A stretch of DNA of 64,000 nt from contig JAFGLV010000021.1 in NCBI GenBank assembly GCA_016927855.1, positions 1 to 64,000 of the forward strand, written 5' to 3'. The stretch is from Sedimentisphaerales bacterium. GTDB lineage: Bacteria; Planctomycetota; Phycisphaerae; Sedimentisphaerales; Anaerobacaceae. A program made the translations under genes and the position numbers. Shown here piece by piece: positions 23,907 to 63,119 of this stretch (position 1 is its first letter; every line of letters starts with the position of its first letter). The notes below the pieces were generated by a model, which did not search any database, was not told where the DNA came from, and was given only the letters and a program-made list of their open reading frames with translations.

Positions 23907-23910
23907 GGTC

Positions 23911-32410: not shown

Positions 32411-32429
32411 GGCTCTACTCCTCTATGCA

Positions 32430-35567: not shown

Positions 35568-35640
35568 TTTCTTGGCCCTTCGCAAGACACTCCCATACCG
35601 TGGCGCGGTCGCCGCGTTGAACTCCATCGGAGCAGACGCA

Positions 35641-37854: not shown

Positions 37855-37875
37855 ATCTCGTCTCCACTGAATCCA

Positions 37876-40632: not shown

Positions 40633-40653
40633 GCCGCTGCCCTTTCCTATCCG

Positions 40654-43200
40654 CTATTGGGTCACCGCGAGACTCTCAATGCGCGCATTCAACTCGTCGT
40701 ATCTGAAACCTTGGGCACGCACCACGTGGTCTTTGTCGGTCAGGACCAGCCAGGGCAGGGACTCGACACCCCAGGCGTAGCGCTGCCGGTCGAGATCCCC
40801 TGGGAGGACGTGCGCCTTGAAGGGCAGCTTCTGCTCGGCCAGCCACCGGTCCAGGTCGGCGCGATCGATGCTGACGGTCTGCGCCAGCACCACCTCGATC
40901 TCCTTTTCGCGCAGTGCGCCCACGCGCTGAGCTAACTCATGGACCATCCGCCGCGACGGACGCTGCTGCTGGTCCATGAAGAGAATCAGCAGGGGTCTGC
41001 CTGCGACGTCTTCCGGCACGAGAGACTTCAGTCCCTCGACCTCATCGAGGCGTTTGCCGATCAGACTCACGTATGCCGGCGGTCTTTGGGCAATGGAGGT
41101 GCCTGCACTGCTTATCCTGAGCATGCCGGACGTCCCGGGCTGCAAGACGATCTTCACGTCCTGTTGGCCGGCCTCGACACTGGCACGACCATACAGAGGG
41201 CTGTTGCTAAAGCCCGCCTGGAGGCGAACGGGGCCCCGGCAGATACGCTCGAAACGGAAGCGGCCGTTTCCGTCGGTCGCGGTTCGCCTGTCGGGCTGGG
41301 TGATCTCGCGCGAGCCGCCGTGCAGGAAAACCGGGACGTTGGGCACCGGCGCGTCGTTGGCATCCACCGCGATCCCGGCCAGCGATTCGTTGGCCGCAAT
41401 CAACACGATCGCGCCCAAGTCGGTCACCGCTTCCGGTCTGTTGGGCACCTCGATTTCCACGTATGACTTCGGACCATAGCCGGCAGCATCGGCACTCAGT
41501 CTGCACGTCGTCGCTTCGTCCGGCGGCAATATACCTGCAAGGGAGAAGGCGCCGCGAGCATCGCACAGCGTCTCTATCGTGATGCTGGACACCGCGCCGC
41601 TAGGCTGAACCATCACCGCCACGCGCGCGGCGGGAATCCCGATCCCCTCCTCGTTGGTGACGGTCCCCTTGACCGTCACACCCGGGCCGAGTCTGATCTG
41701 CACCGGCTCATCCGCAGCGTCAACGTCCGCCAAGCCGACCCAATCTCGCTCTTCGCAGCAGGCGGTCACATGCCATCCTCTTGGGTCCGCGTCGCCGCAG
41801 GGAGCCTCGAAGCGACCCTGCGCGTCGGCGCTAAGCTCGTCGCCTATGTTGGAGATGATCCGACTGCCGGTGCTGAGGGGATGCATGCTGACGGTGGCCC
41901 CAGGCACTGGTTTGCCTTCCGGGTCCACCACCATCCCGCGCAGCTTGGTGGCCGGCTCCAAGTCCACGTCCAGCCGGGTCGTCTCTCCCCGTTCAACCAC
42001 AAACGCCTCGCTGGGGCCTCGCAACCCCCAACTGCGGTATTCATCATTCGGGCTGATACCTGACGAGATCAAGGCGCGCGCCTGGCCAGGGCGCAGACGC
42101 ACACGCGCGATACCCTTGCTGTCAGTGCGTGGCAGATCGGAGAGGGACAGACCACCCAGGGACACCACGACCCCGCCCACGGGTTCCCGCGTCTGCGCGT
42201 TGCGAACGAGTAGCTCGACCAAGCCGCCTCTATCCACTTCGAACGTCACGTCATCGGCGGCATGGTCGGGTCCAAGCAGGACTCCGATGGGCTCGGCCAC
42301 CCACTTCGCCAGTTCACTCTGGGGCCGCACGAGATCGATCTGGTGGTCACCGTCCGGGACGCCTGGGAATGAGAACCGCCCATCGGCATCCGAACGGACC
42401 TTGTACGGCAGGTACAGGTCCTTGATATCCTCCCTCTGGCCGCGCTCGCGCGGACGAGAAATCTCCAGCTCCACGCCGGCAACCGGCGCGCCGGTGCCCT
42501 GCTCCACGACACGGCCGCGAACCAGTCGCTCGTTGTGCAGTGTGAGCATGACGTCAGAACGGCCCACAGGATAGCCAAAGCCATTCAGATAATTCGTCGT
42601 GAATACGTACGCGCAAGGACGGTCCTGGGCCTGGACCCAGAAATCACAACTCATATCTGCAGAGAACCCATCGAACCGGAAGCAGCCATCCGCGTCGGTC
42701 TGAGTCGAGAGCCAGGCCTCGGGCTGCGAGATCGGGCTCTGGCTCAATCGCGACAGATAGGCTGACGTCGGCACCGCGCGCAGCTTCGCCTGCGCCACGG
42801 CCCGGCCCGATATATCCAGCACCTTGCCTGAGATCGACGCCGGCTGCTCCATGACCAACTGGAAACGAACGCGGTCGGCGTTGCTCGCCTGTAGCGGCGC
42901 CCGATCCCAGGCCAGCGCCAGGCCCGCTTTCCTGACGACGACGAACACATTGCGCATGGACTCGATCTGCGCCTGGACCTCGAACAGACCCTGTGCGTCC
43001 GTTCGCCCGATAGGCGCACAGATTCTGGCACACTGGAGCTCGGTGGCCGTATCTTGACCGTTTTCCACGACCGCTACCTCCGCCTGAACCGCCGGTCGGG
43101 CGAGGTAGTCAACCACCCTTCCCGTGACCATGACTGTCCGGCCAAAGCACGCACCAGTCCAAAGCAAAGTGGCACAACTGACCACAATCGTTCTCCGCAT
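40654..43200 (-). CDS. Array locus 10: type II subclass member with degenerate Trx-like domain
   Basis: The product is 848 residues with a signal peptide (about 1-20). The N-terminal half follows the plan shared with loci 1-5: VTGRVVDYLARPAVQAEVAV, then VVRKAGLALAWDRAPLQASN, RLSQSPISQPEAWLSTQTDA, RFDGFSADMSCDFWVQA and YPVGRSDVMLTLHNERLVRG. The last domain is one of two that lost the Cys: LFMDQQQRPSRRMV. The loop ESLPWLVLTDKDH is intact. The segment between them (FKAHVLPGDLDRQRYAWGV) also departs from the usual FPVG pattern, so this copy is drifting. Confidence 0.9.
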   Translation of the reverse strand: MRRTIVVSCATLLWTGACFGRTVMVTGRVVDYLARPAVQAEVAVVENGQDTATELQCARICAPIGRTDAQGLFEVQAQIESMRNVFVVVRKAGLALAWDRAPLQASNADRVRFQLVMEQPASISGKVLDISGRAVAQAKLRAVPTSAYLSRLSQSPISQPEAWLSTQTDADGCFRFDGFSADMSCDFWVQAQDRPCAYVFTTNYLNGFGYPVGRSDVMLTLHNERLVRGRVVEQGTGAPVAGVELEISRPRERGQREDIKDLYLPYKVRSDADGRFSFPGVPDGDHQIDLVRPQSELAKWVAEPIGVLLGPDHAADDVTFEVDRGGLVELLVRNAQTREPVGGVVVSLGGLSLSDLPRTDSKGIARVRLRPGQARALISSGISPNDEYRSWGLRGPSEAFVVERGETTRLDVDLEPATKLRGMVVDPEGKPVPGATVSMHPLSTGSRIISNIGDELSADAQGRFEAPCGDADPRGWHVTACCEERDWVGLADVDAADEPVQIRLGPGVTVKGTVTNEEGIGIPAARVAVMVQPSGAVSSITIETLCDARGAFSLAGILPPDEATTCRLSADAAGYGPKSYVEIEVPNRPEAVTDLGAIVLIAANESLAGIAVDANDAPVPNVPVFLHGGSREITQPDRRTATDGNGRFRFERICRGPVRLQAGFSNSPLYGRASVEAGQQDVKIVLQPGTSGMLRISSAGTSIAQRPPAYVSLIGKRLDEVEGLKSLVPEDVAGRPLLILFMDQQQRPSRRMVHELAQRVGALREKEIEVVLAQTVSIDRADLDRWLAEQKLPFKAHVLPGDLDRQRYAWGVESLPWLVLTDKDHVVRAQGFRYDELNARIESLAVTQ

Positions 43201-43240
43201 GGCACGCCGTCCTTTCTCTTCTCCAAGTAGACCTGTCCGT

Positions 43241-45175
43241 CTATGGCAGTCTCATCTGCGCCAAATGCGCGCCCAGTTCCTCAACCGAAAACCCTTCTGC
43301 CACCACGGCATGTTCCGCATCCGTCAGGATCAGCCAGGGCAGCGACTGAACGTTCCAGTTGAAGCGAGCTTCGTCTCGATCGGTGGTCATCTGTCTCATC
43401 AAGGACACAGGCAGATCGTCAGCCCATGCTTGCAGCGCGTTTACATCCGCCGAGGACACATCCACAGCCACGACGGCCACATCCGCGACAGCCAGCGTCT
43501 CGACCTGGCGCGCCAACTGTGACACGCCGCGACGACCAAGACGCTGCTCGTAATCGAAGAAACACACCAGGACTCGCTTGTTGACGAGCGGTTCCGTCTC
43601 GACCGAGATACCGAGCGTCTCCCAGGCCGGCAAGGGCTTGCCCTTGAGCGGGGTCGCGTCCTCCAGCTTGGGTTTGACAACCAGTTCGATGTCCACCGTC
43701 TCGGCGTCGTCAAAGAAGCCAACCGTCTGCGTGAGCCCCAGGCTGCTTACCTCCCAGATGCGAGTACTCTGCTCGCCGGTGTATCGATCGGAGCGGTACA
43801 GCCTGCGCAGGTGCTCGAATCGAAATCGTCCCTGCGCATCGGTCTTGGTGGTTCGGTCCTGGTCGAAGCCCAAGTGAGAATAGGATGCTCGACTCGTCTG
43901 GGCGATCCTGACCTCGGTATCGGCAACAGGGACTTTCTGGCCGTTTTGCAGACGTACCAGACGACCGGTCACGGTGCCGCCTTCCGGCAGGATCACTTCG
44001 TAGTCTTTCGTTCCCATGGGCAGATCGTACACCATGAGTGCGGCCTGATGCACCGGGGAAAAGAGCAGACAGTAGGCCGCATCTTCTTCCACCTCAATAA
44101 TGAAACGCCCTTCTCGATCGGTAATGTCACCCAGGGTGTTGTAGTTGGAATAGGTCCAGGAGAATCTCCCCGGTTCGCGTTCGCGGCGAATGGCGTTGAC
44201 GTTGACCGGCACACCGGCTACAGGTTGGCCTGATTCGTCCACGGCGCGCCCGGCCACGAACTTGCCGGTAGTCAGGATCTCATCGGCCGGCTTGGAGCGT
44301 ATGTATCGATGGGCCGACCGGCGTCCCGGAGTCACAACCAGTCGTACATCCATCGTACCAGCCATGGTCGTGGCGCGGCAGGACACTTCCCGCTCGTCCA
44401 AACGCCCTTCGGCCATGAATCCGACGGCTCCCTCACAGACATTGAGCGTGAAACGCCCCTCGTCATCGGTGGTCGTCTGGCCATCAGGTTGCCCCTCGCC
44501 GTAGATACGCAGCCGGATGCCTTCAAGAGGCCTGCCTTCCGAATCCACCACCTGACCCGAAACGATCCGATTCGCTGCGGCCAGCGTCATCCGACCCACG
44601 TCGAGGCGACGATCGACAGTCTCCGAGGCATCGACACTCAGATTCGTCCGGCCGTATCCCTCGGCTGTAACCGCCAACGAATAGCGACTCCCCGTCGGCA
44701 GGGCCGTGATCTCGAATCGCCCTTGAGCGTCAGTCGCCGGCTGTGGGCCGGATGGGTCCATGGTCGTTCCCCAACTTGTCATCCAGTACGTCACACGGAT
44801 CTGCGCATTGGCGATACCTCGATCGTTCGCATCCGCGACGCGGCCGGCAATGGTCAACGCGGGTCTCAAGACCAAATCCTGAGTGTCGCTTTCCGGATTC
44901 ACAGGCAACGCGACAGCCAGATTCCGTAAGCGATCCTGGGCGACGATGTGAATGGCCGGACCGTCTTCGCCCAGAAACCGGGGATTATAGGCGATCGTGT
45001 ACGAACCATCCTGATCTGTCTTCACGACCTCCCGGCCGCCCAGAACCACCTGAATCTTGACGCCTTCCAATGGCACTCCATTGGGGTCACGTACGGTCCC
45101 GTGAATCTCTTCCAGAGCCTGGGCCGTGACACTCATCACCAGGAACACATAAACGCACCATACGTTGACCTTCAT
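43241..45175 (-). CDS. Array locus 9: CarboxypepD_reg protein with diverged Trx-like domain (QRLG)
   Basis: The product is 644 residues from the ATG at 45175, supported by AAGGAAGG three bases upstream and by the signal peptide (MKVNVWCVYVFLVMSVTAQA). The architecture parallels locus 15: IHGTVRDPNGVPLEGVKIQV, RNLAVALPVNPESDTQDLVL, ILTTGKFVAGRAVDESGQPV and RASYSHLGFDQDRTTKTDAQ. In the C-terminal domain the motif is CFFDYEQRLGRRGV: Pro and Ser of QRPS are replaced, although QSLPWLILTDAEH is kept. That makes it the most altered motif in the array. Confidence 0.9.
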   Translation of the reverse strand: MKVNVWCVYVFLVMSVTAQALEEIHGTVRDPNGVPLEGVKIQVVLGGREVVKTDQDGSYTIAYNPRFLGEDGPAIHIVAQDRLRNLAVALPVNPESDTQDLVLRPALTIAGRVADANDRGIANAQIRVTYWMTSWGTTMDPSGPQPATDAQGRFEITALPTGSRYSLAVTAEGYGRTNLSVDASETVDRRLDVGRMTLAAANRIVSGQVVDSEGRPLEGIRLRIYGEGQPDGQTTTDDEGRFTLNVCEGAVGFMAEGRLDEREVSCRATTMAGTMDVRLVVTPGRRSAHRYIRSKPADEILTTGKFVAGRAVDESGQPVAGVPVNVNAIRREREPGRFSWTYSNYNTLGDITDREGRFIIEVEEDAAYCLLFSPVHQAALMVYDLPMGTKDYEVILPEGGTVTGRLVRLQNGQKVPVADTEVRIAQTSRASYSHLGFDQDRTTKTDAQGRFRFEHLRRLYRSDRYTGEQSTRIWEVSSLGLTQTVGFFDDAETVDIELVVKPKLEDATPLKGKPLPAWETLGISVETEPLVNKRVLVCFFDYEQRLGRRGVSQLARQVETLAVADVAVVAVDVSSADVNALQAWADDLPVSLMRQMTTDRDEARFNWNVQSLPWLILTDAEHAVVAEGFSVEELGAHLAQMRLP

Positions 45176-45247
45176 CGCACCTTCCTTTCCCCAGACAGCC
45201 AATCGGTCTTCGCCGACGGCCAGTGGTCTTGAGTTGTCAATTGCATG

Positions 45248-46735
45248 TCACTCGCCGGCCGCTTCATCCATCTTCCCTTCCAGCTCGCTGAGCCCAAATC
45301 CCTCCGCCACCACATTGTGCATCTTGTCCGTCAAGATCAGCCAAGGCAGCGACTTAACGCCCCACGTGTGGGCCAGCGCGGGCATATCGGCTCGGTTGGT
45401 CCCCACCGGGGGTTGAATCTGTTTCTGCTCGAGCCAGGACGTCAGTGTCTCCGCAACGGCAGGCTCGGCGTGGACCAGGACGATGTCCACGTTCCTCTCC
45501 GCCAAGGTCCGGGCCCTCGCGTTCAGAGTCTGCACACAGATGCGGCTCGGCCTTTGGTTGACGCTCCAGAAACACACGAGCAGCCTCTTGCCTTGGACCA
45601 ACTCAGCGTCAAGCCCGACGCCGAATGCCTCCAGTGACGGCAAGGTCTTGCCCACGAGCGAGGGTGGCCCCAGGTGCTCGGGGTCCACCTCATAACCATA
45701 GCTGTCCACCACCTTTCCGTCCTTCCAGGTCAATGGCTGTCCGCCCCCTGGGACAAGCGCCATCGTTCCATCCGGCACATCCGGCTTGAAGGCATCGCTG
45801 GCTGTGAAATCCGGGTCACAGTCCATTTCCAGCGTCTTGAGAGACGCCTGGGTCCAGGTCTTGCCGGCTTCATCCTCAAGGACATCCTCATACTGACACG
45901 CCATCGGCACCCACACGCCGTCACGCTCTTCATACGTCGCCGAGGTGAGGGTGAACGTATACGAAACCAACTCCGGGAGCGACCTTACAGTGACACCGGC
46001 GGGCAATCTGGCGGCAGCAAGAGTCTGCGAACGATATTTGTTTAGCGGCTTGCCATTGTAGAGGTCGTCGTCGGTCTTGCGGACTTGGGCCCGCACGATG
46101 TGGTATCCCCGCGTCGGATCGATCCACACGTTGTAGCGGCCGCTGGACGTCTCGGCATCGATGACGTAGCACAGGGCGCCGCCGGTCTCTTCCTTGGCCT
46201 GTCGGAGTGTCAGCGTCTGCGCCGTGGACAGGGTCGTGTCAAAGGCCTCTCTATCGCCTCCGAAGACGCCCAGCAGAGGCATCCCGCAGAAGTACCCTTC
46301 TGTGTTGCGATCGGCCTTCACGTCGACGCGAACATAGCCGGGTTGAGCACGATCAGAAAAACGAACTGATGGCTCTATGAGGTAGTACCGCCGGCCATCC
46401 CAAAGGCGGCGCATATCCGCTCTTCCACGAGGCGTCATCTCCACATCCGGACGCTCAAGTTTGGCATGGCGCCATACCAACAGGTCAAACCGCTTCCCGT
46501 CGGCGCGGAATTCATTTGTCGCGCCGGAGAATGTCGCAGCCGCTTCACTCGGTTGCCGCCCTTGTGATCGCACTTCAACCCGCCAGACCATCCGCTCAAA
46601 CGCCTTCTGGCCGGCACGCCAGCGGTCAAGTACGTCCTGAGGTGTCTGCTCTGCAGAACGGATAGTCGAACACAGCGTGCCGACGGTACAGACAATCAGG
46701 ACCGTCCAATCCAACCGCCTCTGCTTGACGTTCAT
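45248..46735 (-). CDS. Array locus 8: LolA-like domain with QRPS Trx-like domain
   Basis: The 495-residue product has a signal peptide (about 1-28), then a LolA-like domain (about 30-310): VLDRWRAGQKAFERMVWRVE, LWDGRRYYLIEPSVRFSD, YNVWIDPTRGYHIVRAQVRK and YEERDGVWVPMACQYEDVLE. It is only distantly similar to loci 16 and 17. The C-terminal motif is CFWSVNQRPSRICV, with Ser in place of the usual Asp, and KSLPWLILTDKMH follows. It starts 13 bp after locus 7. Confidence 0.88.
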   Translation of the reverse strand: MNVKQRRLDWTVLIVCTVGTLCSTIRSAEQTPQDVLDRWRAGQKAFERMVWRVEVRSQGRQPSEAAATFSGATNEFRADGKRFDLLVWRHAKLERPDVEMTPRGRADMRRLWDGRRYYLIEPSVRFSDRAQPGYVRVDVKADRNTEGYFCGMPLLGVFGGDREAFDTTLSTAQTLTLRQAKEETGGALCYVIDAETSSGRYNVWIDPTRGYHIVRAQVRKTDDDLYNGKPLNKYRSQTLAAARLPAGVTVRSLPELVSYTFTLTSATYEERDGVWVPMACQYEDVLEDEAGKTWTQASLKTLEMDCDPDFTASDAFKPDVPDGTMALVPGGGQPLTWKDGKVVDSYGYEVDPEHLGPPSLVGKTLPSLEAFGVGLDAELVQGKRLLVCFWSVNQRPSRICVQTLNARARTLAERNVDIVLVHAEPAVAETLTSWLEQKQIQPPVGTNRADMPALAHTWGVKSLPWLILTDKMHNVVAEGFGLSELEGKMDEAAGE

Positions 46736-46748
46736 TGCTCCTCTCCTG

Positions 46749-48308
46749 CTATTGTGCGAGCTGATCTTCGAGATCCGCCACGGCGAAACCTTCGGCGGTC
46801 ACAATATGCTCTTCGTTCGTCAGGATCAGCCACGGCAATGACTCGATGCCCCACTTGACGCGCGTCTGCTTCTCGTCGGCTTCGATCATCCCGATGCGGA
46901 CGCGGATGCCGTTCTCCTCGATCCACTCATCGAGTGTCCCACGTTCGATCCTCGACGCCTGGACAGCCACGATAGCAGCGTTTTCGTCGCTCAGTTCGTT
47001 CAGTTGCAGGAGGCAGTTCCGCGACGGTCGCTGCTGGAAGTCGAAGAAGCACAGCAGGACCCGCTTTCGGTCAAGGGCATCGCGGTCGAGTCGGAGACCG
47101 AATTCTTCCAGGTTGCCGAGCGGTTGGTACAGGAGGGACTGCCTGGGCGGCTCCCTCAGGGCTCGGAGCCTGGCCTGGAATCGCTGGCGGTCCTGTGCTG
47201 TCACGATCAGCTCACGGCGTTCGATCGTCCTGGTCGCGTCGGGACGAATCTCCCAGGGAGCTTCGAAATACTGCCCGGATTTCGAGGTGGTGACGAAACC
47301 TCCCTCGGCATTCGGCTCTTCGATGCTGGCGTAGTCCACCCAGTACGTCCCGGCGGGAAGAGGCATGGTCCCGTCGAAGGTAAGGAGCTTGATCGGACCG
47401 AGCTCGCCGACCAGCTTCACATAGGCTCTGTCGGCCGGCATGCGAAGGTGGCCCATCGGCACGTCGAGCGCGCGAACCGTTACGGTCCGGCCGTCAGGGG
47501 AGCAATCGATGCGGTATGCCTTGCCCTTGAAAACCGTGCAGCCGCCGATGAATTCCATCTCAAATCTATCGATCTGGCCGCTGCCGTCGGCGTCCCATCC
47601 GATCAGATCGTAATCCTGCTCGCGCCGGCCCAGCGTGCCGATCCATTGGAGGTCCGTATGGCCGGCGCTGTAGCGACCGTCGCAGTTGTAGTCGATCAAT
47701 ACCGCTTCCAGTTCCTCGTCGCCCAGCTTGATCCGGCCGGACAGGTAACAGTGCGAATTCAGATACAGCTCGCCAGGGTTGGAGGCGCCGAGCATGTGAT
47801 ACCAGGAAAAGACCCGATGCACGCGCGGCCTGTCCTGTCCAACCAGAGGCAATTCGACCGGACCGTAGTAGCAGTCTGTGACCTCGGGGCCCATCGTGCT
47901 GCTGCGGTTTTCTCCCTTGAGAATCTCGTCCTCTTCGATCCGACCGTCGCGATTCAGATCGATGAAAAACTCATCGAAGCCTACGAGTTCTGCGGAGGAT
48001 TTCCTCAGGCCGCAGAAGAACGTCGTCCGCACCGAATCTGAAAACCCGGCCCGCCCATATTCGACGCTCGCGCCGGACAAACCCTCCAACCCCTCGGGGA
48101 CTCTCGGCTCGGTCTCGATGTGATGGACCCGGAAGCAGCCCGGCGCGACGGGAATGCCCTGCTGTTTGTCGGCCCCGCCGGGATGCCAGGTCATACCGAA
48201 CGTGCCGACGACGCGCCCTGGTACCGAACTCGATGCTTGCTCCTCGCTGCGTGCCGGACTGTATGGCATCCATACCAGAAGCAAAACGACTGAGAGGTAC
48301 TTCCTCAT
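46749..48308 (-). CDS. Array locus 7: exported EF-hand-type protein with QRPS Trx-like domain
   Basis: The product is 519 residues from the ATG at 48308 (MRKYLSVVLLLVWM), where the signal peptide starts and GGAG lies nine bases upstream. The N-terminal region has no CarboxypepD_reg repeats. It holds two 12-residue loops that fit the EF-hand consensus, DLNRDGRIEEDE and DADGSGQIDRFE, plus a partial one, DYNCDGRYSAG, so calcium binding is likely. A beta-rich region with YWVDYASIEEPNAEGGFVTT follows. The C-terminal domain has CFFDFQQRPSRNCL and ESLPWLILTNEEH. It begins four bases after the locus 6 stop. Confidence 0.9.
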   Translation of the reverse strand: MRKYLSVVLLLVWMPYSPARSEEQASSSVPGRVVGTFGMTWHPGGADKQQGIPVAPGCFRVHHIETEPRVPEGLEGLSGASVEYGRAGFSDSVRTTFFCGLRKSSAELVGFDEFFIDLNRDGRIEEDEILKGENRSSTMGPEVTDCYYGPVELPLVGQDRPRVHRVFSWYHMLGASNPGELYLNSHCYLSGRIKLGDEELEAVLIDYNCDGRYSAGHTDLQWIGTLGRREQDYDLIGWDADGSGQIDRFEMEFIGGCTVFKGKAYRIDCSPDGRTVTVRALDVPMGHLRMPADRAYVKLVGELGPIKLLTFDGTMPLPAGTYWVDYASIEEPNAEGGFVTTSKSGQYFEAPWEIRPDATRTIERRELIVTAQDRQRFQARLRALREPPRQSLLYQPLGNLEEFGLRLDRDALDRKRVLLCFFDFQQRPSRNCLLQLNELSDENAAIVAVQASRIERGTLDEWIEENGIRVRIGMIEADEKQTRVKWGIESLPWLILTNEEHIVTAEGFAVADLEDQLAQ

Positions 48309-48312
48309 CCTA

Positions 48313-50607
48313 TCAGTCTCCGTCTCTGGACAACCGCGCAACTTCTTCATCGAGCGCATCAAGGCCGAACCCCTCCGCACGGACGATATGCTGCGCGTCC
48401 GTCAGGATCAGCCAAGGTAGCGACTTGGCACCCCAGGCGAGACGAGTCGCATCGAGGCTGTCAGAGATCGTGCCTACGGGAAAGGCGATGCTGTTCTGCT
48501 CGATCCACTCGTCAAGCGCCTGGCGGCCCACCTCGGTGGCCTGCACTGCGATGACGGCGACATTCTTGCGGCTCAGCGCTTCGGACCGACATGCCAACTC
48601 CTGCATGGTATTGCGCGACGGTCGCTGCTGCATGTCGAAGAAGCAAAGCAAGATTGCCTTGCCCTCGTTCTCGTCGGCAGAGAAGTCGATCCTGATGTTC
48701 TCGAAGTCGAGCAGCTTGCGGCCGACCTGCAATCGAGGCATCCTCGGCTGGGGCGGTTTTGCGATTTGACGTTGAATCCGCGCATCGCTTGGCAGTGCAC
48801 CTTGCAGGCGCAGTACCGCGTCGGGATCGACCTTGTGCGCGGAGAGGATGCGCACGGTTCTCAGCCCCTTGAGACCTTCGAGGTGGCGCAGGCCGCGCCC
48901 TTGGAAGTCGCCGCTGATAGTCAGGTAGTTCAGCCTGCTCATGGAGGCAAGGTATTGCAGTCCGTCGTCGGTCAGGTTGGCGTTGTGTACTTCAAGTCGA
49001 TTGAGGCCGGTCAGATGCTGCAAATGGGCTAAGCCGGTGTCGGTCAGCGTCCCCTGATTGGCGATCTCCAGCCACCGAAGGTCCTGAAGCGCCGCCAGGC
49101 AGGCAAGGTCTTCATCGCGAAACACGGGCACGCGCAGGCGTCGGAGCCCGGTCAACGTACCGATCCGCAGAATGGAATCGTCGGCCGCAATCTCTCGCGC
49201 ATACCCGCCGGTGATATCCAACTCGGCCAGGTTGGACAACGCCGCGAGGTGGTTAACGCCGTAGGTCGTAACCTTGGGCGCCCATACCTCCAGCCTAGTC
49301 AGCTCGCTGAGCCCACGCAATCGGGCCAGTCCCTCGTTCGTTATCTGCTGTCCACTGAAAAGGGTCAGGTCCCTGAGGCTGGTCAGTTGGCCGATCACGG
49401 CCAGAGCGTCCTCAGTGAAGCCTCGGCTGCCTACGCTGAGCTGCTCGAGATGCTCCAATGCGGTCAGATGGATCAGCCCTGAGGCGGTGAAACGGTGACA
49501 ATTGGGAACGACCAGGCTCCGCAGGCCGCGCAGTCGGCACAACTGCTCCAAGCCCTCGTCCGTGAAATTGCCATGGCGCAGCTCCAGTGATTCCAGAGAC
49601 TCGATCTGCGCCAGATGGGCGAGGCCCGTGTCGCCCAGGTCGTCTCCCATTTGCTGGAAGTCGGGTTGGAGCAACAGCCTGCGCAGTGACCACAGCGATT
49701 CGAGCGACGCGACGTGCCGGTCGTCGAGGACGGCGTTCCGAACGGCCAGGTCTTCGATCTGAGTCAATTGCGCCAGCGCCGCTACCCACTCCGGCGAGAC
49801 CGGCGGATCGACGAACTCCAGCCTCTTGAGAGAGGTCAGACCCTTCAGATGCATCAGTCCCGCCTGGCTGTACCCGCCGCCGGAGAGCAGCAGGTAGTGG
49901 AGCCTTGGCAGCTTTGCGAAGACGGCCAGGCTGTCATCGTGCGCGCTGGCTTGGTCGGGAAACAGCTCTTCCAGCAAAGTCAGCTTGGCCAAGTGCGCTG
50001 GGCCGGTGGGCGTGACCTTCGGACCGTAGAACCGCAGACCTCTGAGCGACGCGACTTCCGCAATGTGCGCCAGACCAGCGTCGCCGAGAAAGTCAGACAC
50101 AACCGACAGCCGCTCCAGTGACGCCAAGCTCGTTAGCGACTTGAGACCCTCATCGCTGATGCCAGCGTGCTCGAGGACCAGTGTCCTAAGCCCGCCCAGT
50201 CCACAAATATGCGGCACGCACCGGTCGTCCGGCGTGACGCTACGGTAGCTGGTGCGTCGAATGACCAGCGCATCGAGGTCATCGTCACGCAACTGAGCCA
50301 GCGGCGCGAGGTCCTTCCAGCCGTCCGGACCGACCGCCAGCGCCAACGGCTGGCCCGCCGGTACGCGAATGTCCCCCGTTGCCTCGCCCAGGTATCGCCA
50401 ACCCATGAGCTGACCCCACCACCACGAAACCGAGGCATCGGCGGCGTCGGCCTCCCGAACGAAAAGCTCACCGAGCGAGCGGTCGTTCGGAAAGTGCAAT
50501 ACCTTCGTTTCCGTCCCTGCCGGCGCGGAGGCCCCGAGAACCGTCACGACGGCCGTGACAATTGCGACGAACGCAAGTCCTCTGCGTCTCTCGGCACCCT
50601 CGCTCAT
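48313..50607 (-). CDS. Array locus 6: leucine-rich-repeat protein with QRPS Trx-like domain
   Basis: The 764-residue product has an N-terminal hydrophobic segment (LAFVAIVTAVVTVLGASAPA) that could be a signal peptide or anchor. About fifteen leucine-rich repeats occupy residues 130-600, of the type LRTLVLEHAGISDEGLKSL, LESLELRHGNFTDEGLEQL and LNRLEVHNANLTDDGLQYL. The family C-terminus follows: CFFDMQQRPSRNTM and KSLPWLILTDAQH. LRR arcs usually bind proteins. Joining them to the same tail as the beta-sandwich members shows that the tail is a transferable unit. Start and end overlap or abut neighbours (4-nt ATGA overlap with locus 5). Confidence 0.92.
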   Translation of the reverse strand: MSEGAERRRGLAFVAIVTAVVTVLGASAPAGTETKVLHFPNDRSLGELFVREADAADASVSWWWGQLMGWRYLGEATGDIRVPAGQPLALAVGPDGWKDLAPLAQLRDDDLDALVIRRTSYRSVTPDDRCVPHICGLGGLRTLVLEHAGISDEGLKSLTSLASLERLSVVSDFLGDAGLAHIAEVASLRGLRFYGPKVTPTGPAHLAKLTLLEELFPDQASAHDDSLAVFAKLPRLHYLLLSGGGYSQAGLMHLKGLTSLKRLEFVDPPVSPEWVAALAQLTQIEDLAVRNAVLDDRHVASLESLWSLRRLLLQPDFQQMGDDLGDTGLAHLAQIESLESLELRHGNFTDEGLEQLCRLRGLRSLVVPNCHRFTASGLIHLTALEHLEQLSVGSRGFTEDALAVIGQLTSLRDLTLFSGQQITNEGLARLRGLSELTRLEVWAPKVTTYGVNHLAALSNLAELDITGGYAREIAADDSILRIGTLTGLRRLRVPVFRDEDLACLAALQDLRWLEIANQGTLTDTGLAHLQHLTGLNRLEVHNANLTDDGLQYLASMSRLNYLTISGDFQGRGLRHLEGLKGLRTVRILSAHKVDPDAVLRLQGALPSDARIQRQIAKPPQPRMPRLQVGRKLLDFENIRIDFSADENEGKAILLCFFDMQQRPSRNTMQELACRSEALSRKNVAVIAVQATEVGRQALDEWIEQNSIAFPVGTISDSLDATRLAWGAKSLPWLILTDAQHIVRAEGFGLDALDEEVARLSRDGD

Positions 50608-53042
50608 CGCGACTCCTTTCCTGTCATGGCCTCGATCTTGTCGTCAAGCTCGCTGAGAGGGAATCCTTCCGCACGGACGACACGTTCACGATCCGCCAGG
50701 ATCAGCCAAGGCAAGGACTTGACGCCCCAGGCGAGGCGGGTTGCGTTCACGTCACGACGAATGCGCTCGATAGGAAGGGTGACCTCGCTCTGCTCGATCC
50801 AGCCGGCCAGCGCGTCGTCTTCAACTTCTGAGGTTTGTACGGCCATCACAACGACGTCTTTCTGCTTCAGCGCGTCCGCTTGTCTGGCGAGTTGCAGAAA
50901 CGCGGCCCGCGAAGGACGCTGCTGGAAGTCGAAGAAGCACAAGAGGATCGCCCGGTCGCGCAGGTCTGTCCGTGACAAGTCCAGGCCAATCTCGTTGCCA
51001 TCGGGCAGCGGCTTTCCCTCCAGGGATGCGTAGTCCGTGTGCACGCGCTCCTGGCCCAGGATGATCGTCACGTCCTGGTCGCCGCCTTCGGCGCGCAGGT
51101 GGCCGGCGCCGCCGGGCCAATTGTCGTAGCTGGCCTGGATTCGCAGCGGTCCTTGGCAGACGCGTCTGACGACAAACCGTCCGGCGCTGTCGGTCGCGGT
51201 GGATCGAGATGGCTGGTCCGTGCCGCGTGCATGGATCGGCACGCCGGCAACGGGGCTGCCGTTAGCATCGACCACGATGCCCGAGACCGACCGATCAGCC
51301 GGCGGCAGTACGACCGGCTCGATCTGGGCACGCCGGTCAGGCTGCGGCGTGACGGAGATTCTCCGGTACCGCCAGCCGCCGAATCCGGAGGCATCGACCG
51401 AGAGCCGGTAGTTGAAACCCTCCTGCTCCGGCGCGACTGCGCTAACCTCAAAGCGCCCTTGAGAGTCGGTCGTGACGTCCGGTGCATAAGGCATCAGAGC
51501 ACCCGGCGTGTTCAGGTAGAGCGCCACGCGTGCGGCGGGGATCCCCTTGCCGTTGGGGTCGGTCACCGTCCCGCAGACCGACAAGGCAGGATTCAGCACC
51601 ATTCGTGGCGACGGTCCAAGGTCGGCGGGATTGACCACGGCCGCGAGGTTCCGCTCTGGGTGACGAGCCACCCAGACAACGGCACGATCGTCGGAAGGAC
51701 GCCGCGCCTCGAACCTGCCGGCTTGATCTGTCGGTGCTAGGGCACCGCCGATTTCGGCACCGCCGACGGGCTGGCCCGCCTCGTCGAGCGCCACACCTGA
51801 AACGCGAGCGTAACGATCCAGAACAATCTCGGCTCTGACCGTCTGTCCCTGGGCAACCATGACCTGGCTGTCGTAGAACATCGGCGAGTAGCTGTCCGTA
51901 CGCGTGCTCAAAGCGCACTCGCCCAGAGGCGCCTGGATGCGTAGCAAGCCATTAGCGTCGGTACGGGCAGACGTGTAGAAGTCGGATGATTCGTTTTGGA
52001 CCGCCTGCCAGAACTGAACCGGCAGTCCGGCAATCGGCTCGCCCGTTTCCTGTTCCTGCGCGACGATTTCGATCGTGCCACCTCTGCGAAGCTCTGCGGT
52101 CACTTTCGTGGGCTCCGCGCCGGCGCGCACGTCGAATGTCACGCGCCTGTCGACCAGCCCTGTCTCCGGCGGCGCCGAAACCTTGACATAGCGCTCGCCC
52201 GGTGGGACACCTTTGAACGCAAAACGCCCATCTTGTCCCGAGGTGGTCACGACGGGAGTGAATGGATTCTTGTCGTGATCGATGCTCTTGGGGTGGAGCA
52301 GCACACGCGCTCCGGCGATCGACGCGCCGCTGTCAGCGTCGATGACCTGTCCTTGCAGTGGGACTTCTCGTGGCAGGACCAGGCGGATATCGGTGCGGCC
52401 GACCTCGAAACCACACGCAGACATCCTCTGGGTGGTGAACTGATAGACCTGAGCCCAGCCAGGCGCCTCGACCCAGAAATCCGTGCTGACGTCAGCGGAG
52501 AAACGGTCGAAGCGGAACGCTCCTTGCTCATTCGTCTGCGTAGTCAACCACGATTGCGGCGCCAGGACCGGCGTCTGGTCGAGCCGCTCCAGGTAGCTGC
52601 TCTTGGGCGCAGCGCGCACCGTCGCTCCCGCCACAGGCCGGTCCTCGCTGTCCAACAACACGCCTGCCAGCACAGACGGCTGCTCCAGGACGATCACGTT
52701 ATCGTACGGTCGGCCCAGCCCGTCCCAGCCCAGCGCGTACCCATCCTTGCGAGCCACGATCAAATACATGCCGATCGCGCTGAAGGTCACATCCGCCGTA
52801 AGAACGAATCGCCCCTCGTTGTCGGTCCGCCTGATCTCGTCGCGCAGCACACCGGTGTCGTCGGTCGACGCGTAGTCGTAGACCCGCTCAAAAACCGCGA
52901 CCTCAGCGTCTGCAACCGGCCGGGCCTGGCAATTGACCACCCTGCCGGTGATCGTACGGACTTCACCCCACGTCACGAGGCTTGGCGTCAGAACGATCAA
53001 AAACACGATCGCCAGGATTCGTATCCGCGTGGTCGACTTCAT
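50604..53042 (-). CDS. Array locus 5: type II subclass CarboxypepD_reg protein with QRPS Trx-like domain
   Basis: The product is 812 residues. The signal peptide (about 1-25) leads into ITGRVVNCQARPVADAEVAV, VARKDGYALGWDGLGRPYDN, APQSWLTTQTNEQGAFRFDR, GFEVGRTDIRLVLPREVPLQ and FWQAVQNESSDFYTSARTDA, in nearly the same order and wording as locus 3. The C-terminal motif is CFFDFQQRPSRAAF, then KSLPWLILADRER. GGAGAGAG sits just before the ATG, and both ends overlap neighbours by four bases. Loci 3 and 5 are the closest pair among the beta-sandwich members, although locus 4 lies between them. Confidence 0.92.
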   Translation of the reverse strand: MKSTTRIRILAIVFLIVLTPSLVTWGEVRTITGRVVNCQARPVADAEVAVFERVYDYASTDDTGVLRDEIRRTDNEGRFVLTADVTFSAIGMYLIVARKDGYALGWDGLGRPYDNVIVLEQPSVLAGVLLDSEDRPVAGATVRAAPKSSYLERLDQTPVLAPQSWLTTQTNEQGAFRFDRFSADVSTDFWVEAPGWAQVYQFTTQRMSACGFEVGRTDIRLVLPREVPLQGQVIDADSGASIAGARVLLHPKSIDHDKNPFTPVVTTSGQDGRFAFKGVPPGERYVKVSAPPETGLVDRRVTFDVRAGAEPTKVTAELRRGGTIEIVAQEQETGEPIAGLPVQFWQAVQNESSDFYTSARTDANGLLRIQAPLGECALSTRTDSYSPMFYDSQVMVAQGQTVRAEIVLDRYARVSGVALDEAGQPVGGAEIGGALAPTDQAGRFEARRPSDDRAVVWVARHPERNLAAVVNPADLGPSPRMVLNPALSVCGTVTDPNGKGIPAARVALYLNTPGALMPYAPDVTTDSQGRFEVSAVAPEQEGFNYRLSVDASGFGGWRYRRISVTPQPDRRAQIEPVVLPPADRSVSGIVVDANGSPVAGVPIHARGTDQPSRSTATDSAGRFVVRRVCQGPLRIQASYDNWPGGAGHLRAEGGDQDVTIILGQERVHTDYASLEGKPLPDGNEIGLDLSRTDLRDRAILLCFFDFQQRPSRAAFLQLARQADALKQKDVVVMAVQTSEVEDDALAGWIEQSEVTLPIERIRRDVNATRLAWGVKSLPWLILADRERVVRAEGFPLSELDDKIEAMTGKESR

Positions 53043-55471
53043 GGACTCTCTCCTGTCGTCGCTAGTTGGTTTTCCAGCTCACCCAGCGCGAACCCTTCCG
53101 CTCGGACGAGATGGCTTCTGTCCGCCAGGATCAGCCAAGGCAACGACATGATGCCCCACGTCAAGCGGGTCTCTTGCGCGTTCGCTCCAACCATGCCGAT
53201 GCGGAAAGGCACGTTGCTGTCCCTGACCCACTTGTCGAGCTCAGCCTGAGCGACGACGGATGCCTGTACTGCAGCTACGACAATGCCCTTTTGCGTCAGA
53301 GTATCGGCTTGCCCGGCCAATTGGAGAAGAGCCTGCCGTGACGGCCGCTGTTGCATGTCGAAGAAGCAGACAAGAACCGGTTTCCCGTCTGTCTCTGCGG
53401 ATGACAGGCCCAACTCCTTGAGATCGGGCAGAGGCTTTCCTGCAAGCGTGACTTCGGGCTCGTGAACGAGTTGCTGGCCCAGGATGATCTTGAGGTTCCG
53501 GGCCGGCAATTCGGCTTTGATGAAGCCCGCGCCGCCGGGACTGGACCCGAAGTTGGCTTGAATGCGAATCGGTCCCCTGCACAGACGCGTCAGTGCAAAC
53601 TCGCCTCGTTCGTTGGTGGCGGTTGCCTTGGAAGGCTGGCTGACTCTGGGCAAGCCGTTCACGAAGATCGGCACGTGAGCCGCAGGCACTCCGTTGGGGT
53701 CCACCACAACACCGGAGACGGACTGATCGGCCAAGGGCAGTTCCGTCTCGCCGACGTCCACGACTGTTCCCGGCGCCCCACTGGGAGAGATCCGCAGGTA
53801 CTCCCTCGGGCCGTAGCCTGCCGCGGCGACGGAAAGGCGATACATGAAACCGTCCTGGACCGGCGGGATGGCCTTCATCTCGAATCGGCCCTGCGCGTCA
53901 GTCAAGAGCTCGACACCTAGTTGGCTCAGGCAGTTTTGCGTACTCAGGCACAGGGACACTCGTGCGGCGGGTATACCGGCGCCGTCGGGGCCGACCACCT
54001 TGCCGGTCAGAGTCCACGCCGGCGCGAGCCTGAGGTCAATCGGCCGGGACCAGTCTGTCACGCGCATCGCCACGGCCGAGCCGACACCGACATCCCGAGC
54101 CACCGCAAATCCGCCGTTGGCGGCGTGCTGCTCGTCACAGGCCGCCTCGAACCTGCCGTTGCTGTCACTGTACGCATGATCGCCAAAGGGATGGACGGAA
54201 ACCACCGCATCTCTGACCGGCTCGCCGCCGGGGCCGAGCACGCGACCGTAGGCTGTCGGCGGAAGCGAAAGCAACGCCTCATAGCGCACCGTCTGCCCCG
54301 CCGCAACCTGCTCCTTGCTTTGGTAGCCGACAAACTGGTCTGCCGTTACGTAAACGTCATACTCACCTGCCGGCGCCCGGACGCGTGCGATGCCTTTGGC
54401 ATCCGTGCGCGCCGGCTTGTCGCGCCACCAGTCACGTGCATAAAGGCTCACCCTGGCGCCCGGCACCGGACGCCGGGCTTGTGCGCTCAGGACGGTCACT
54501 TCCAGGACGCCTCCCTTGACCACGTGGATGGTGGCCTCCGTCGCCGCCGGACCGGCCTTCACCGACACTTCCATCAGCTTGCCCACCCAGAGACCGGGCC
54601 CTTCCTCAGGCGCGAGTACCTCGATTTGGCCCTCCCCTTCGGGAATGCCCGCGAAAGCGAACGCTCCGTTCCGATCTGAGGTAGTCTTGCGCGCGAGATA
54701 CGAGCGGGTGACATCGGCTTCGGAACGATTGGGAGAGATCATCAGGTCTACACCGCTGACCGGTTGACCCTGCTCATCCACAACGCGTCCTTCGATCGCA
54801 CCGAGGACGGGCAGTTGCAGCCGGATGTCGGAACGCCACACCTCGAAGCCACATGACGCCTGCTCGTGCAGGCGCAGCACCTGGATGGTGTCCTGGCCGG
54901 GGAGCTTGACGCGGTACGACATACTGACATCGGCCGCGAATGCGGCAAAACGGAACTGCCCTTGCGCGTCGGTGGTCGTGGTGAACCATTCCTTGGGCGC
55001 GAGGATCGAACGCTGACGGAGGCGATCCAGGTAGCTGTTTACAGGCAGAGCCTGCACCTGCGCGCCGACGATGGGACTACCCTTTGAATCGACAACTTGG
55101 CCGGTCAATGCGCACGGTGGCTCCAAGACGAGCGGGAAAAGGCCTTTGCCCTTGGTGTTGTGGCTGTAGTTGAGACCGTCCCAAGCCAGCGCCAAGCCCT
55201 GCTTGCGCGCCACGATGAAGGTACCGTACTGGTTCGACACGTTCGCCTGGAGCTGGAACCGCCCCGTTGCGTCGGTCTTCACGATGGGCGCGACCAGTTT
55301 GGCGTCATAGGCAGACCCGCCGATCGCATACCACTCGTACACCGCCACTTCTGCTCCCTCTACCGGTCGGGCCTTGCTGTCCACCACTTGTCCCAGCACC
55401 GGCAACGCTTCGCTGGATGAAACCCAGGCACCCAGGAGGACCCACACACAGACTATGATTGTCGTTCGCAT
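53039..55471 (-). CDS. Array locus 4: type II subclass CarboxypepD_reg protein with QRPS Trx-like domain
   Basis: The product is 810 residues from the ATG at 55471, preceded by AAGGAG at ideal spacing; an upstream in-frame extension has no such site. A signal peptide (MRTTIIVCVWVLLGAWVSSS) is followed by LGQVVDSKARPVEGAEVAVY, VARKQGLALAWDGLNYSHNT, APKEWFTTTTDAQGQFRFAA and GFEVWRSDIRLQLPVLGAIE. Its sequence is closest to locus 2. The C-terminal domain has CFFDMQQRPSRQAL and MSLPWLILADRSH. The 55-bp gap before it is one of the larger ones in the first part of the array. Confidence 0.92.
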   Translation of the reverse strand: MRTTIIVCVWVLLGAWVSSSEALPVLGQVVDSKARPVEGAEVAVYEWYAIGGSAYDAKLVAPIVKTDATGRFQLQANVSNQYGTFIVARKQGLALAWDGLNYSHNTKGKGLFPLVLEPPCALTGQVVDSKGSPIVGAQVQALPVNSYLDRLRQRSILAPKEWFTTTTDAQGQFRFAAFAADVSMSYRVKLPGQDTIQVLRLHEQASCGFEVWRSDIRLQLPVLGAIEGRVVDEQGQPVSGVDLMISPNRSEADVTRSYLARKTTSDRNGAFAFAGIPEGEGQIEVLAPEEGPGLWVGKLMEVSVKAGPAATEATIHVVKGGVLEVTVLSAQARRPVPGARVSLYARDWWRDKPARTDAKGIARVRAPAGEYDVYVTADQFVGYQSKEQVAAGQTVRYEALLSLPPTAYGRVLGPGGEPVRDAVVSVHPFGDHAYSDSNGRFEAACDEQHAANGGFAVARDVGVGSAVAMRVTDWSRPIDLRLAPAWTLTGKVVGPDGAGIPAARVSLCLSTQNCLSQLGVELLTDAQGRFEMKAIPPVQDGFMYRLSVAAAGYGPREYLRISPSGAPGTVVDVGETELPLADQSVSGVVVDPNGVPAAHVPIFVNGLPRVSQPSKATATNERGEFALTRLCRGPIRIQANFGSSPGGAGFIKAELPARNLKIILGQQLVHEPEVTLAGKPLPDLKELGLSSAETDGKPVLVCFFDMQQRPSRQALLQLAGQADTLTQKGIVVAAVQASVVAQAELDKWVRDSNVPFRIGMVGANAQETRLTWGIMSLPWLILADRSHLVRAEGFALGELENQLATTGESP

Positions 55472-55526
55472 GACAGACTCCTTGGTGAAATCAACACATC
55501 TCTCAACAAAGGCTTCTACCCCACCG

Positions 55527-57968
55527 TCAATCCCTCGTTGTCCTGTTGACGTGGGCTTCAAGCTCATCCAACGCGAACCCCTCTGCCCTTACGACGTGCT
55601 TCCTGTCCGCAAGGACCAACCAAGGCAGGGACTTGACGCCCCACGCCAGGCGCGTCGCGTCGATGTCACCGCGCATCCGCCCGACGGGCAACGCGACGTC
55701 GCTCTGCGTCACCCACTCGGACAGCGCGTCAGCATCCACCTCGGAAGCCTGCACGCCGACTACGATGACGCCTTTCTGTTTCAACGCCTCCGCTCGCCCG
55801 GCCAGTTGCAGGAGAGCGTTCCGCGAGGGACGCTGCTGGAAGTCGAAGAAACACAGGAGGATCGCGCCGTCTCGAATATCCGCGTGCGAGAAATTCAAGC
55901 CAAGAGCGTCGCCGGGCGGCAGTGGTTTGTCCTCTAGTGACGCGTACCTCTGGTGCACCCGACGCTGGCCGAGGATGATCTTGACGTCGCGATCACCGCC
56001 CTCGGCTTCCACGGTCCCGCCGGCCTGGCGGGAGAGGCTGCCTTGAATACTCACCGGCGCTTGGCAGAGGCGATGGAGTGTGAAACGCCCGGCGGCATCG
56101 CTTACCGTGGTCCGTGAGAGTTGACTGCGGCCGTATGCGGAGACCAAGGCGCCGCCAGCGCGCGCTCCGTTGGCATCTGCGACAATGCCGGTGACAGACC
56201 TGTCGGCCGGAACCAGCACGATGGGCTCGAGCTCGATTCGTGCGCCGGGCTCCCGCGGTACGGCGACTCGCTGCCCCGAATTTCCATAGCCGCAGGCGCT
56301 GACGGAGAGCCGATAGGAAAACCCGGCTTGGCCGGTGGCGATGCTCCTGAGTTCGAATCGCCCTTCAGCATCGGTCGCAACGTCGGGCGCGTACGGCATG
56401 CTGACATGCAATTGCTGGATAACCACATCGTGGCCCACTCGCGCCGCAGGAATCCCGTTGCCGTTCGGATCGACCACCCGTCCGGCGATCAGGCAGGCCG
56501 GGTTCATGGTGATGCACAGCGGCTCGGCAGCCTGCTCTGCCATCCTCAGGCCGACGAGATTTAGCGGCGAATGGCGTGCGACCCAGACCCCAGGCAAATT
56601 GCCTGGCGGCAGGCTTACCTCAAACCTGCCGGCCCGATCCGTGCGCGCCGAGCCCTTGGCGAAATAGTCGCTCGCGACCGCCAGGCCGGTGACGACAGCG
56701 TCTGGGACAGATTGTCCGGACGCGTCGAGCACAGTTCCCGATACCCTTGTGTAGCCCTCGAGCAGAATGGTAGTCTCGACCGTCCGGCCCTGGAGCACGG
56801 TGGCCGCGCCTTCATAGAACATCGGAATGTAGCGATCCGAACGGGTGCTGAAGGCGCATTCTCCCACCGGCACCGGGACTCTCAGAACGCCGTTGGCATC
56901 GGTGTGAGCGTCCCTGTAGAAGTCGGATCGTTCGGTTTGGACGGCCTGCCAGAAGTGAACGGGTAGCCCGGCAATGGGCGCGCCGGTCTGCTCTTCTCGG
57001 GCGACGATTTCGATCGTGCCGCCTCGGCGCAACTCGGCCGTTACCTCCGTCACCGGCGCGCCAGCCCCGACGTCGAACGTCACGCGTCGGTCGACCAAGC
57101 CGGTTTCGTCCGGCGCGGAGACGGCGACGTACCGTTGGCCGGGGGGAACCCGTTGAAAGGAGAACCGGCCGTCCGACCCGGTGGTCGTCGCGAGCGGAAT
57201 GAACGGGTTCGCATCGGGGTTAAGGTCCTTCGGTTCGAGAAGCACGCGAGCACCGTCGACCGGCGCGCCGCTGTCGACGTCGACCACCTGCCCCTGCACC
57301 GGACTCTCCCGAGGCAACACCAAGCGGATGTCCGTCCGACCGACCTCGAATCCGCATAGGGTCATCATGTGCGGCGAGTATTCAAAGACGAGCTGCCGGT
57401 CAGGGGCTTTCACCCAGAAGTCCGTGCTGACCTCCGCCGAGAAAACGCCGAAGAGGAACCTTCCGTCGTCATCTGTCTGCGTCGTCAGCCAGGACGGCGG
57501 CGCCAGGATCGGCAGTTGCTCCAGCCGTCTCAGTTGGCTGTTCTTCGGAGCAGCTCGCACCACCGCGCCCGCTACGGGCCGGTCATTTGCGTCGACCACG
57601 ACGCCTCCGACCGAACACAGCCGGTCCAGAACGATCACATTGTCGTCGATATGCTCCAGCAGGTCCCAGCCAAGGGCAAGGCCATCCTTGCGCGCGACGA
57701 TCACATAGACTCGGAGCACACTGAGGCTCACGTCGGTGGTAAAGGCAAATCGACCGTCCTGGTCCGTTATCCTGATCTCGTCGCGCATTTCGGCGGTATG
57801 ACGACCCGTCTTCTCGTGGAGGGCCACCTCGGCTCCTTGAACCGGGCGCCCCAGGTAGTCGACTACCCTGCCGGTAATTATGTGCGCTTGGCCCGATGTC
57901 ACGAGGCTCTGGACGAGAACAATCGAGAATGCCAACGTCAGGCTGCGCATTTGCACGGTCGGTTTCAT
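55527..57968 (-). CDS. Array locus 3: type II subclass CarboxypepD_reg protein with QRPS Trx-like domain
   Basis: The product is 813 residues from the ATG at 57968 (MKPTVQMRSLTLAF), which overlaps the locus 2 stop as ATGA; the longer frame lies inside locus 2. A signal peptide precedes ITGRVVDYLGRPVQGAEVAL, VARKDGLALGWDLLEHIDDN, APPSWLTTQTDDDGRFLFGV, GFEVGRTDIRLVLPRESPVQ and FWQAVQTERSDFYRDAHTDA. The C-terminal domain has CFFDFQQRPSRNAL and KSLPWLVLADRKH. The run NLAAVV seen in locus 5 is NLVGLR here, one of the few departures between the pair. Confidence 0.92.
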   Translation of the reverse strand: MKPTVQMRSLTLAFSIVLVQSLVTSGQAHIITGRVVDYLGRPVQGAEVALHEKTGRHTAEMRDEIRITDQDGRFAFTTDVSLSVLRVYVIVARKDGLALGWDLLEHIDDNVIVLDRLCSVGGVVVDANDRPVAGAVVRAAPKNSQLRRLEQLPILAPPSWLTTQTDDDGRFLFGVFSAEVSTDFWVKAPDRQLVFEYSPHMMTLCGFEVGRTDIRLVLPRESPVQGQVVDVDSGAPVDGARVLLEPKDLNPDANPFIPLATTTGSDGRFSFQRVPPGQRYVAVSAPDETGLVDRRVTFDVGAGAPVTEVTAELRRGGTIEIVAREEQTGAPIAGLPVHFWQAVQTERSDFYRDAHTDANGVLRVPVPVGECAFSTRSDRYIPMFYEGAATVLQGRTVETTILLEGYTRVSGTVLDASGQSVPDAVVTGLAVASDYFAKGSARTDRAGRFEVSLPPGNLPGVWVARHSPLNLVGLRMAEQAAEPLCITMNPACLIAGRVVDPNGNGIPAARVGHDVVIQQLHVSMPYAPDVATDAEGRFELRSIATGQAGFSYRLSVSACGYGNSGQRVAVPREPGARIELEPIVLVPADRSVTGIVADANGARAGGALVSAYGRSQLSRTTVSDAAGRFTLHRLCQAPVSIQGSLSRQAGGTVEAEGGDRDVKIILGQRRVHQRYASLEDKPLPPGDALGLNFSHADIRDGAILLCFFDFQQRPSRNALLQLAGRAEALKQKGVIVVGVQASEVDADALSEWVTQSDVALPVGRMRGDIDATRLAWGVKSLPWLVLADRKHVVRAEGFALDELEAHVNRTTRD

Positions 57969-62916: not shown

Positions 62917-63119
62917 AGTCACCTCCGGAGTTGGCTCAAGCAAGGTGCGGCTGGCAGTGGGACAACACAGATTCCCCCCGTTGTTCGGCGTGGACAGGCA
63001 ACACGGGACAAAATGCTCAAATGGAGGATAGACGCACAGTGTTTGCGCACACCTGCTCCCTCCTGGGCAACCTTCAGCCGCAGAACGATAGGCCGAACCG
63101 TCGTGCTGTCGTGCGTCGG
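62917..63119. other. 203-bp gap between the candidate selenoprotein gene and the array
   Basis: Apart from the locus 1 ribosome-binding site, I see no gene here. A promoter for the array would be expected here or further upstream. By eye no -35/-10 pair is convincing; a TATCCT without a good -35 partner lies roughly 100 bp upstream of the locus 1 start. An imperfect inverted repeat of the GTGCGCA/TGTGCG type lies next to it. Confidence 0.4.

Follow-up and report, generated by a model that had tools for sequence, protein, structure and literature searches.

A predicted thioredoxin-fold tail lacking CxxC in a planctomycete gene array and in BlaR1-type (M56) receptor fusions

The genes of a same-strand array in a Sedimentisphaerales bacterium resemble a set of exchangeable sensor parts, because the same modules recur as the outer half of BlaR1-type receptors. 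We propose, at a probability of about one half, that the array encodes the ectodomains of membrane signalling receptors as free-standing units and that a redox-dead thioredoxin domain at the ends of its proteins (hereafter the tail) serves as their common, non-enzymatic docking module. The array would be the free-standing version because relatives carry the same units within M56 receptors. The window, that is, the whole stretch of 64,000 nucleotides analysed, covers positions 1-64000 of contig C63, which is 72,253 bases long and belongs to an 87%-complete genome.

The leucine-rich repeat gene and its array

The earlier note had described a leucine-rich repeat (LRR) ectodomain fused to the C-terminal domain common to the array, and this is borne out by Pfam matches to LRR and AhpC-TSA families in the product of ORF 48313-50607(-) and by the tail in 22 array genes (Table 1). 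The ORF starts with ATG and its frame is intact and gap-free. LRR_14 was matched at 3.2e-24 (85.8 bits against a curated cut-off of 40) and LRR_6 was matched likewise; AhpC-TSA at residues 630-744 (2.8e-6) scored 27.7 bits, just over the cut-off of 26, and falls under it in several paralogues. Pfam found no M56 domain in this product. The full-length structure model (pLDDT 89.7, pTM 0.78) shows a signal-peptide-like helix at residues 4-23, LRR strands at 113-615 and a thioredoxin fold at 644-762. No lipobox was seen by eye in the putative signal peptide. The small N-terminal beta domain is conserved in LRR relatives, and matches to LRR proteins start at query residues 26-32. The LRRs had been put at about fifteen; they are present, but the model shows more, and the count in Table 1 was taken from it because a regular expression gave only 4 strict LRR motifs and was dropped. 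Repeat type and solenoid fold are common to this protein and bacterial LRR proteins (internalin-like, LRR_14/LRR_4), whereas here the LRRs are joined to a dead thioredoxin domain; NCBIfam internalin models score far under their cut-offs, the likeness being that of LRRs in general.

Neighbouring ORFs of the array are spaced by at most 53 bases or overlap, and four of the overlaps are of 4 bases, as counted from longest-ORF starts. ORFs 19519 and 30965 are without the tail. The 21 other tails in the window share 33-51% identity with that of the LRR gene, and a search of the window's own genome gave 25 tail matches, 22 of them in the window contig. Several members deserve separate mention. ORFs 29264-30943 and 30965-32410 (both minus strand) are seemingly one gene in two pieces and, to judge from shared BLASTP matches, jointly resemble the single ORF 32430-35711. 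ORF 19519-22350(-) encodes 943 aa with a signal-peptide-like start and has no Pfam or NCBIfam match. The N-terminal part of 46749-48380(-) has a sub-threshold EF-hand-like motif (E 2e-4). Outside the array, a 998-aa protein at 603-3599(-) has a weak C-terminal match to the TafC fimbrial family (NCBIfam 2.4e-9, far under cut-off).

Table 1. Features of the window, with the evidence for each
Feature	Position	Strand	Evidence
Array of 24 ORFs, 22 with tail	11380..63198	(-)	Tail alignment, genome search
Tail-bearing array ORFs	Lower coordinates 11380, 14373, 16318, 22389, 23911, 24520, 25865, 27234, 29264, 32430, 35641	(-)	
Tail-bearing array ORFs, continued	Lower coordinates 37876, 40654, 43241, 45248, 46749, 48313, 50604, 53039, 55527, 57965, 60418	(-)	
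Nearly full-length match to M56 receptor L105, residues 382-1009	14373..16304	(-)	42%, 4e-164 (BLASTP)
Full-length match to M56 receptor L163, residues 372-1442	16318..19491	(-)	43%, E=0 (BLASTP)
Match to giant M56 receptor L104, residues 1198-1649	22389..23927	(-)	39%, 3e-116 (BLASTP)
Match to giant M56 receptor L104, residues 3018-3584	35641..37854	(-)	58%, E=0 (BLASTP)
LRR and pseudo-thioredoxin gene, 764 aa	48313..50607	(-)	Pfam and structure model
Putative Sec-type signal peptide, about residues 1-30	50518..50607	(-)	Hydrophobic window at residue 9, model helix 4-23; judged by eye
Small N-terminal beta domain, residues 34-92	50332..50508	(-)	Model strands
LRR solenoid, residues 101-615, about 20 repeats	48763..50307	(-)	Model secondary structure, Pfam
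C-terminal tail, predicted redox-dead ResA/TlpA-type thioredoxin fold	48316..48750	(-)	Alignment, PDB search, model
Q-R-P-S-R motif in place of CxxC-R, residues 661-665	48613..48627	(-)	Alignment with same-genome CPPCR/CGPCK domains
S-L-P-W, cis-proline position kept, residues 729-732	48412..48423	(-)	Tail alignments

M56 receptors with array-like ectodomains and ECF sigma factors near tail loci

To the window we added loci collected from its own and other genomes (numbered L, genomes G), which gave 171 distinct tail ORFs, 135 of them complete, after matches with a core of less than 40 residues were dropped. M56 domains accompany the tail in 5 of the 171 (six rows minus L195, a partial duplicate of L027) and LRRs, in either order, in 8. 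The largest M56 case, L104, is a single N-free frame that stays open for at least 3648 aa; it encodes an M56 domain (HEFAH; Pfam 2e-38) and four tails, the third being immediately preceded by a block of LRRs. L105 (3.7e-38) and L163 (2.9e-26) each hold M56 and two tails in one N-free frame, and L027, from the window's own genome, has M56 and one tail in such a frame. The same genome carries M56 with LRRs on a tail-less protein (L166), and LRRs of the window class are also found on the tail-less M56 receptors L160 and L151. Residues 2102-2238 of L163:11082-18665 form a further AhpC-TSA/Redoxin thioredoxin fold, also without CxxC, which the tail profile does not match.

Four array products match such receptors of related Phycisphaerae over long segments (Table 1), the first of them matching L104 as well (38%, 1e-122, BLASTP), and residues 33-752 of the LRR protein match L104 residues 1674-2355 (27%, 1e-78, BLASTP). 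Penicillinase_R, the BlaI type, was found by Pfam in all six tested ORFs adjoining M56 genes, and in G018 an LRR-tail gene is followed on the same strand by a BlaI ORF and then an M56 gene. PMC9834060 describes cleavage of BlaI by BlaR1 upon a signal at the ectodomain. The loci related to the window share with BlaR1/MecR1 and BlaI/MecI the M56 domain, its HExxH motif, an adjacent BlaI-type repressor and an ectodomain placed after the last membrane helix; they differ in that CarboxypepD_reg, LRR and dead-thioredoxin units replace the penicillin-binding sensor. The window array differs further, as its ectodomain units are separate, predicted exported proteins without M56. A Pfam scan of 20 array ORFs, made up of the longer ORFs of the window, found no Penicillinase_R (PF03965). 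As to M56 in general, the window's own genome (G000) is rich in it, with 17 matches, some of them in frames that reach 2927 aa and encode large ectodomains of uncharacterised type.

Several observations count against the signalling reading. M56 fusions are a minority of the tail ORFs, all 17 M56 matches of the genome lie off the window contig, the units of L104 do not follow the gene order of the window, and most N-terminal parts in the window are generic CarboxypepD_reg sandwiches, which are found in structural proteins too. A fusion also shows that its parts are functionally linked rather than which face binds what. It is possible, though we consider it unlikely, that the array encodes structural surface proteins, that is, adhesin or envelope-scaffold subunits in which the dead thioredoxin is a polymerisation or spacer module and whose bricks were reused in the M56 fusions. 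Beta-sandwich repeats are indeed the most frequent partners (CarboxypepD_reg in 39 of the 60 complete tail ORFs taken for the Pfam partner census), one protein of the window weakly matches an S-layer glycoprotein model (NCBIfam), and a protein may have up to four tails. However, the near-full-length homology to segments of M56 receptors and the BlaI neighbours point to signalling, and the strict conservation of the former active-site loop (see below) is more in keeping with a specific binding site than with a spacer.

A second candidate link to signalling is an ECF sigma factor upstream of the array (L026:1616-2716, minus strand), which has a C-terminal hydrophobic segment as judged by eye. 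Because ECF genes are common (85 matches in the 5.34-Mb genome), proximity to the array says little, and we set it aside as evidence while retaining the count of the subfamily. At E≤1e-25 the subfamily has four members in the six genomes searched, of which three, a small count, adjoin tail or LRR/tail loci: at the array head, before an LRR/tail locus in G023 and between two tail genes in G018. The contig of the fourth (G018:C81) is without a tail match. PMC8999054 describes ECF sigma factors that carry membrane extensions at the C-terminus (ECF52/53, IutY); the array-head ECF resembles them in having a C-terminal extension with a hydrophobic segment, which is followed by an LRR ORF, and its tie to the array products is putative. 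That LRR ORF, of the window class, lies right behind the ECF ORF in a different frame (L026:861-1580, minus strand), and the two may be separate genes or a single ECF-membrane-LRR protein interrupted by a frameshift. In G013, a 121-aa ORF (L041:1486-1848, minus strand) joins the N-terminus of such an ECF to the latter half of a tail and adjoins a glycosyltransferase-like ORF resembling L026:2983-4185; this locus looks like a collapsed array.

Position, fold and active site of the tail

The tail is usually C-terminal, ending within 60 residues of the C-terminus in 129 of the 135 complete ORFs, and it is also found internally, repeated or preceding LRRs. Most ORFs (161 of 171) have one tail, nine have two and one has four. 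In L130:4921-7071(+) the tail is flanked by an SMP-30/gluconolactonase domain on one side and a metallo-beta-lactamase fold on the other, so that enzymes are also among its partners. The C-terminal preference, and the presence of one tail on otherwise unrelated proteins, would suit a signal by which a dedicated surface-attachment machine sorts or attaches proteins, like the C-terminal domains of type IX secretion. We regard this as quite improbable: the tail is repeated in 10 of the 171 ORFs and precedes LRRs in others, it is retained in M56 receptors that are already membrane-bound, its fold is that of thioredoxin, and no sorting-signal family (LPXTG, PEP-CTERM, type IX CTD) was matched in NCBIfam at E≤0.01. 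No hydrophobic window was found in the tail of the window protein. The earlier idea that the array presents its binding surfaces through one anchor finds no support in view of the same findings, namely the globular fold, the hydrophobicity and NCBIfam results, the internal tails, up to four per protein, and the tails before LRRs. An anchor or sorting signal was therefore rejected as the leading view, and we retain the tail as a candidate docking module.

Folded alone with 82 sequences (the G016 relative left out of the alignment), the tail gave a model of pLDDT 94.2, which among known structures comes closest to a Bacillus ResA-type oxidoreductase (4nmu; Z 17.1, rmsd 2.8, 137 residues aligned). 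The same protein ranked first in Foldseek (E 4.6e-10), and the nearest PDB sequence is ResA (E 8e-4). The QRPSR of the tails aligns with the CPPCR and CGPCK of thioredoxin domains from the same genome. Motif letters are present in 183-184 of 190 aligned tails, six or seven being gapped there, and among these Q is conserved in 179, the first R in 179, P in 176, S in 174 and the last R in 179, with no cysteine at either catalytic position in any of them. A ResA/TlpA-type thioredoxin fold lacking CxxC is a well-supported prediction from the model and the alignments. The tail shares with ResA/TlpA, periplasmic thiol-disulfide oxidoreductases (PF00578/PF13905, NF002854), the fold, the cis-proline and the extracytoplasmic setting; it differs in having QRPS instead of CxxC, in being a module within large multidomain proteins, and in its score of 20.3 bits against the NF002854 cut-off of 170. 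To judge from its sequences, the tail has probably lost redox chemistry and retained a conserved site, a pattern other than decay.

An enzymatic or redox role of the tail (thiol exchange, peroxidase or chaperone) is very unlikely. The tail does belong to the AhpC/TSA-ResA superfamily and one cysteine in a buried strand is common among tails, but that cysteine aligns inside the strand preceding the motif, off both catalytic positions, and both of these are replaced, CxxC occurring in none of the tails with motif letters. An active redox domain was accordingly rejected, QRPS standing in place of CxxC.

Probable repeated fusion, distribution and proposed role

The LRR/tail junction is conserved outside the window's genome. 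L158:3692-5038, from another genus, is 45% identical to residues 324-754 of the window protein across the junction, and three more cases of LRR then tail in the same frame were found in two genomes, so that the proteins sought elsewhere on the suggestion of the earlier note do exist; nor is the fusion peculiar to this assembly or broken at a gap, the ORF lying away from the contig end in a window with zero N bases. That an LRR gene was joined to a neighbouring tail gene by misassembly or frameshift can be dismissed: neighbouring array ORFs do overlap and a split-looking gene is present in the array (30965/29264), but the junction is kept in another genus, recurs in two genomes and lies in N-free sequence. 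In the G016 relative L159 the LRR and the tail do not share a frame and are separated by two N bases; it was kept unrepaired and excluded from the fusion counts.

LRRs directly precede the tail in five ORFs: in the window, in L139/L158, in L113, in L069 and inside L104. With 45 of 175 tails, the AU test rejects a single clade for these five (P = 0.0035) and for the four without L139 (P = 1.5e-5), and it retains the grouping of the window with L139 (P = 0.49). Because the single clade is rejected, the tail appears to have been joined to LRRs repeatedly, unless the tree was shaped by gene conversion; the tails within L104 and L105 lie close to each other, which suggests that conversion between the tails of one protein could mimic repeated fusion. 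FastTree parsimony gave 5 changes for the 5 LRR-linked tails and was distrusted alone, since it placed the collinear relative L139/L158 apart from the window tail. The window fusion itself is probably old and inherited, because L158 aligns across the junction and the AU test keeps the window with L139/L158. The description of the tail as a movable module is upheld by its joining to CarboxypepD_reg, LRRs, gluconolactonase-like and metallo-beta-lactamase domains and M56, and by the rejection of a single LRR-tail clade.

Of 41 genomes chosen as relatives, 13 had tail matches (E≤1e-3), as did 5 of 392 genomes of a phylum sample (E≤1e-15, with at most 10 candidates per genome scored), the window's own genome included in both; these searches used a profile without a QRPSR/SLPW pattern filter. 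All 72 taxon-titled loci from a pattern search are from Planctomycetota, 59 of them from Phycisphaerae and the rest given without class; that search incorporated parts of QRPSR and SLPW and under-sampled relatives with other motifs. No description of the tail family was found in the open-licence PubMed Central literature searched, and within this partial literature the family appears undescribed.

Beyond the predicted fold, the loss of CxxC, the conservation, the fusions and the gene order, we infer secretion, docking by the tail, a signalling role and ligand binding by the LRRs. The LRR protein would be an exported, unanchored ectodomain consisting of a signal peptide, a beta domain, an LRR solenoid for recognition and the tail. 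Recognition of proteins is what LRRs usually do, as the earlier note remarked. In thioredoxins, the active-site loop and the cis-proline loop form the peptide-binding face; the tail may keep this fold and face with its redox cysteines changed to Q-R-P-S, and would dock a common partner rather than exchange disulfides, while the N-terminal part would give each array member its own recognition surface. Relatives appear to string such recognition-plus-tail units into the extracytoplasmic half of M56 receptors adjoining BlaI-type repressors. If these act like BlaR1, their CarboxypepD_reg, LRR and dead-thioredoxin ectodomains would be the signal-receiving part, and the window array would supply membrane signalling with secreted units that act as co-receptors or bind ligands. 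Because the window contig yielded no M56 gene, the transducer is suggested to be either the array-head ECF sigma factor or an M56 receptor from another part of the genome. A doubtful and more speculative extension is a plug-in system, in which a secreted recognition battery with the same redox-dead thioredoxin plug docks on one or a few M56 or ECF-linked transducers that feed one output, and evolution converts separate-gene and giant-receptor forms into each other.

The tail is a clear example of a redox fold that has been taken over as a conserved module without catalysis, and its QRPSR motif can be mutated. An array of nameless secreted proteins thereby becomes a testable hypothesis on planctomycete signalling. 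If the hypothesis is true, BlaR1-type receptors, known for antibiotic sensing, would have a large class of relatives with exchangeable ectodomain units, the recognition units being joined by a dead thioredoxin domain; and if the plug-in arrangement also holds, many surfaces would feed one signalling output.
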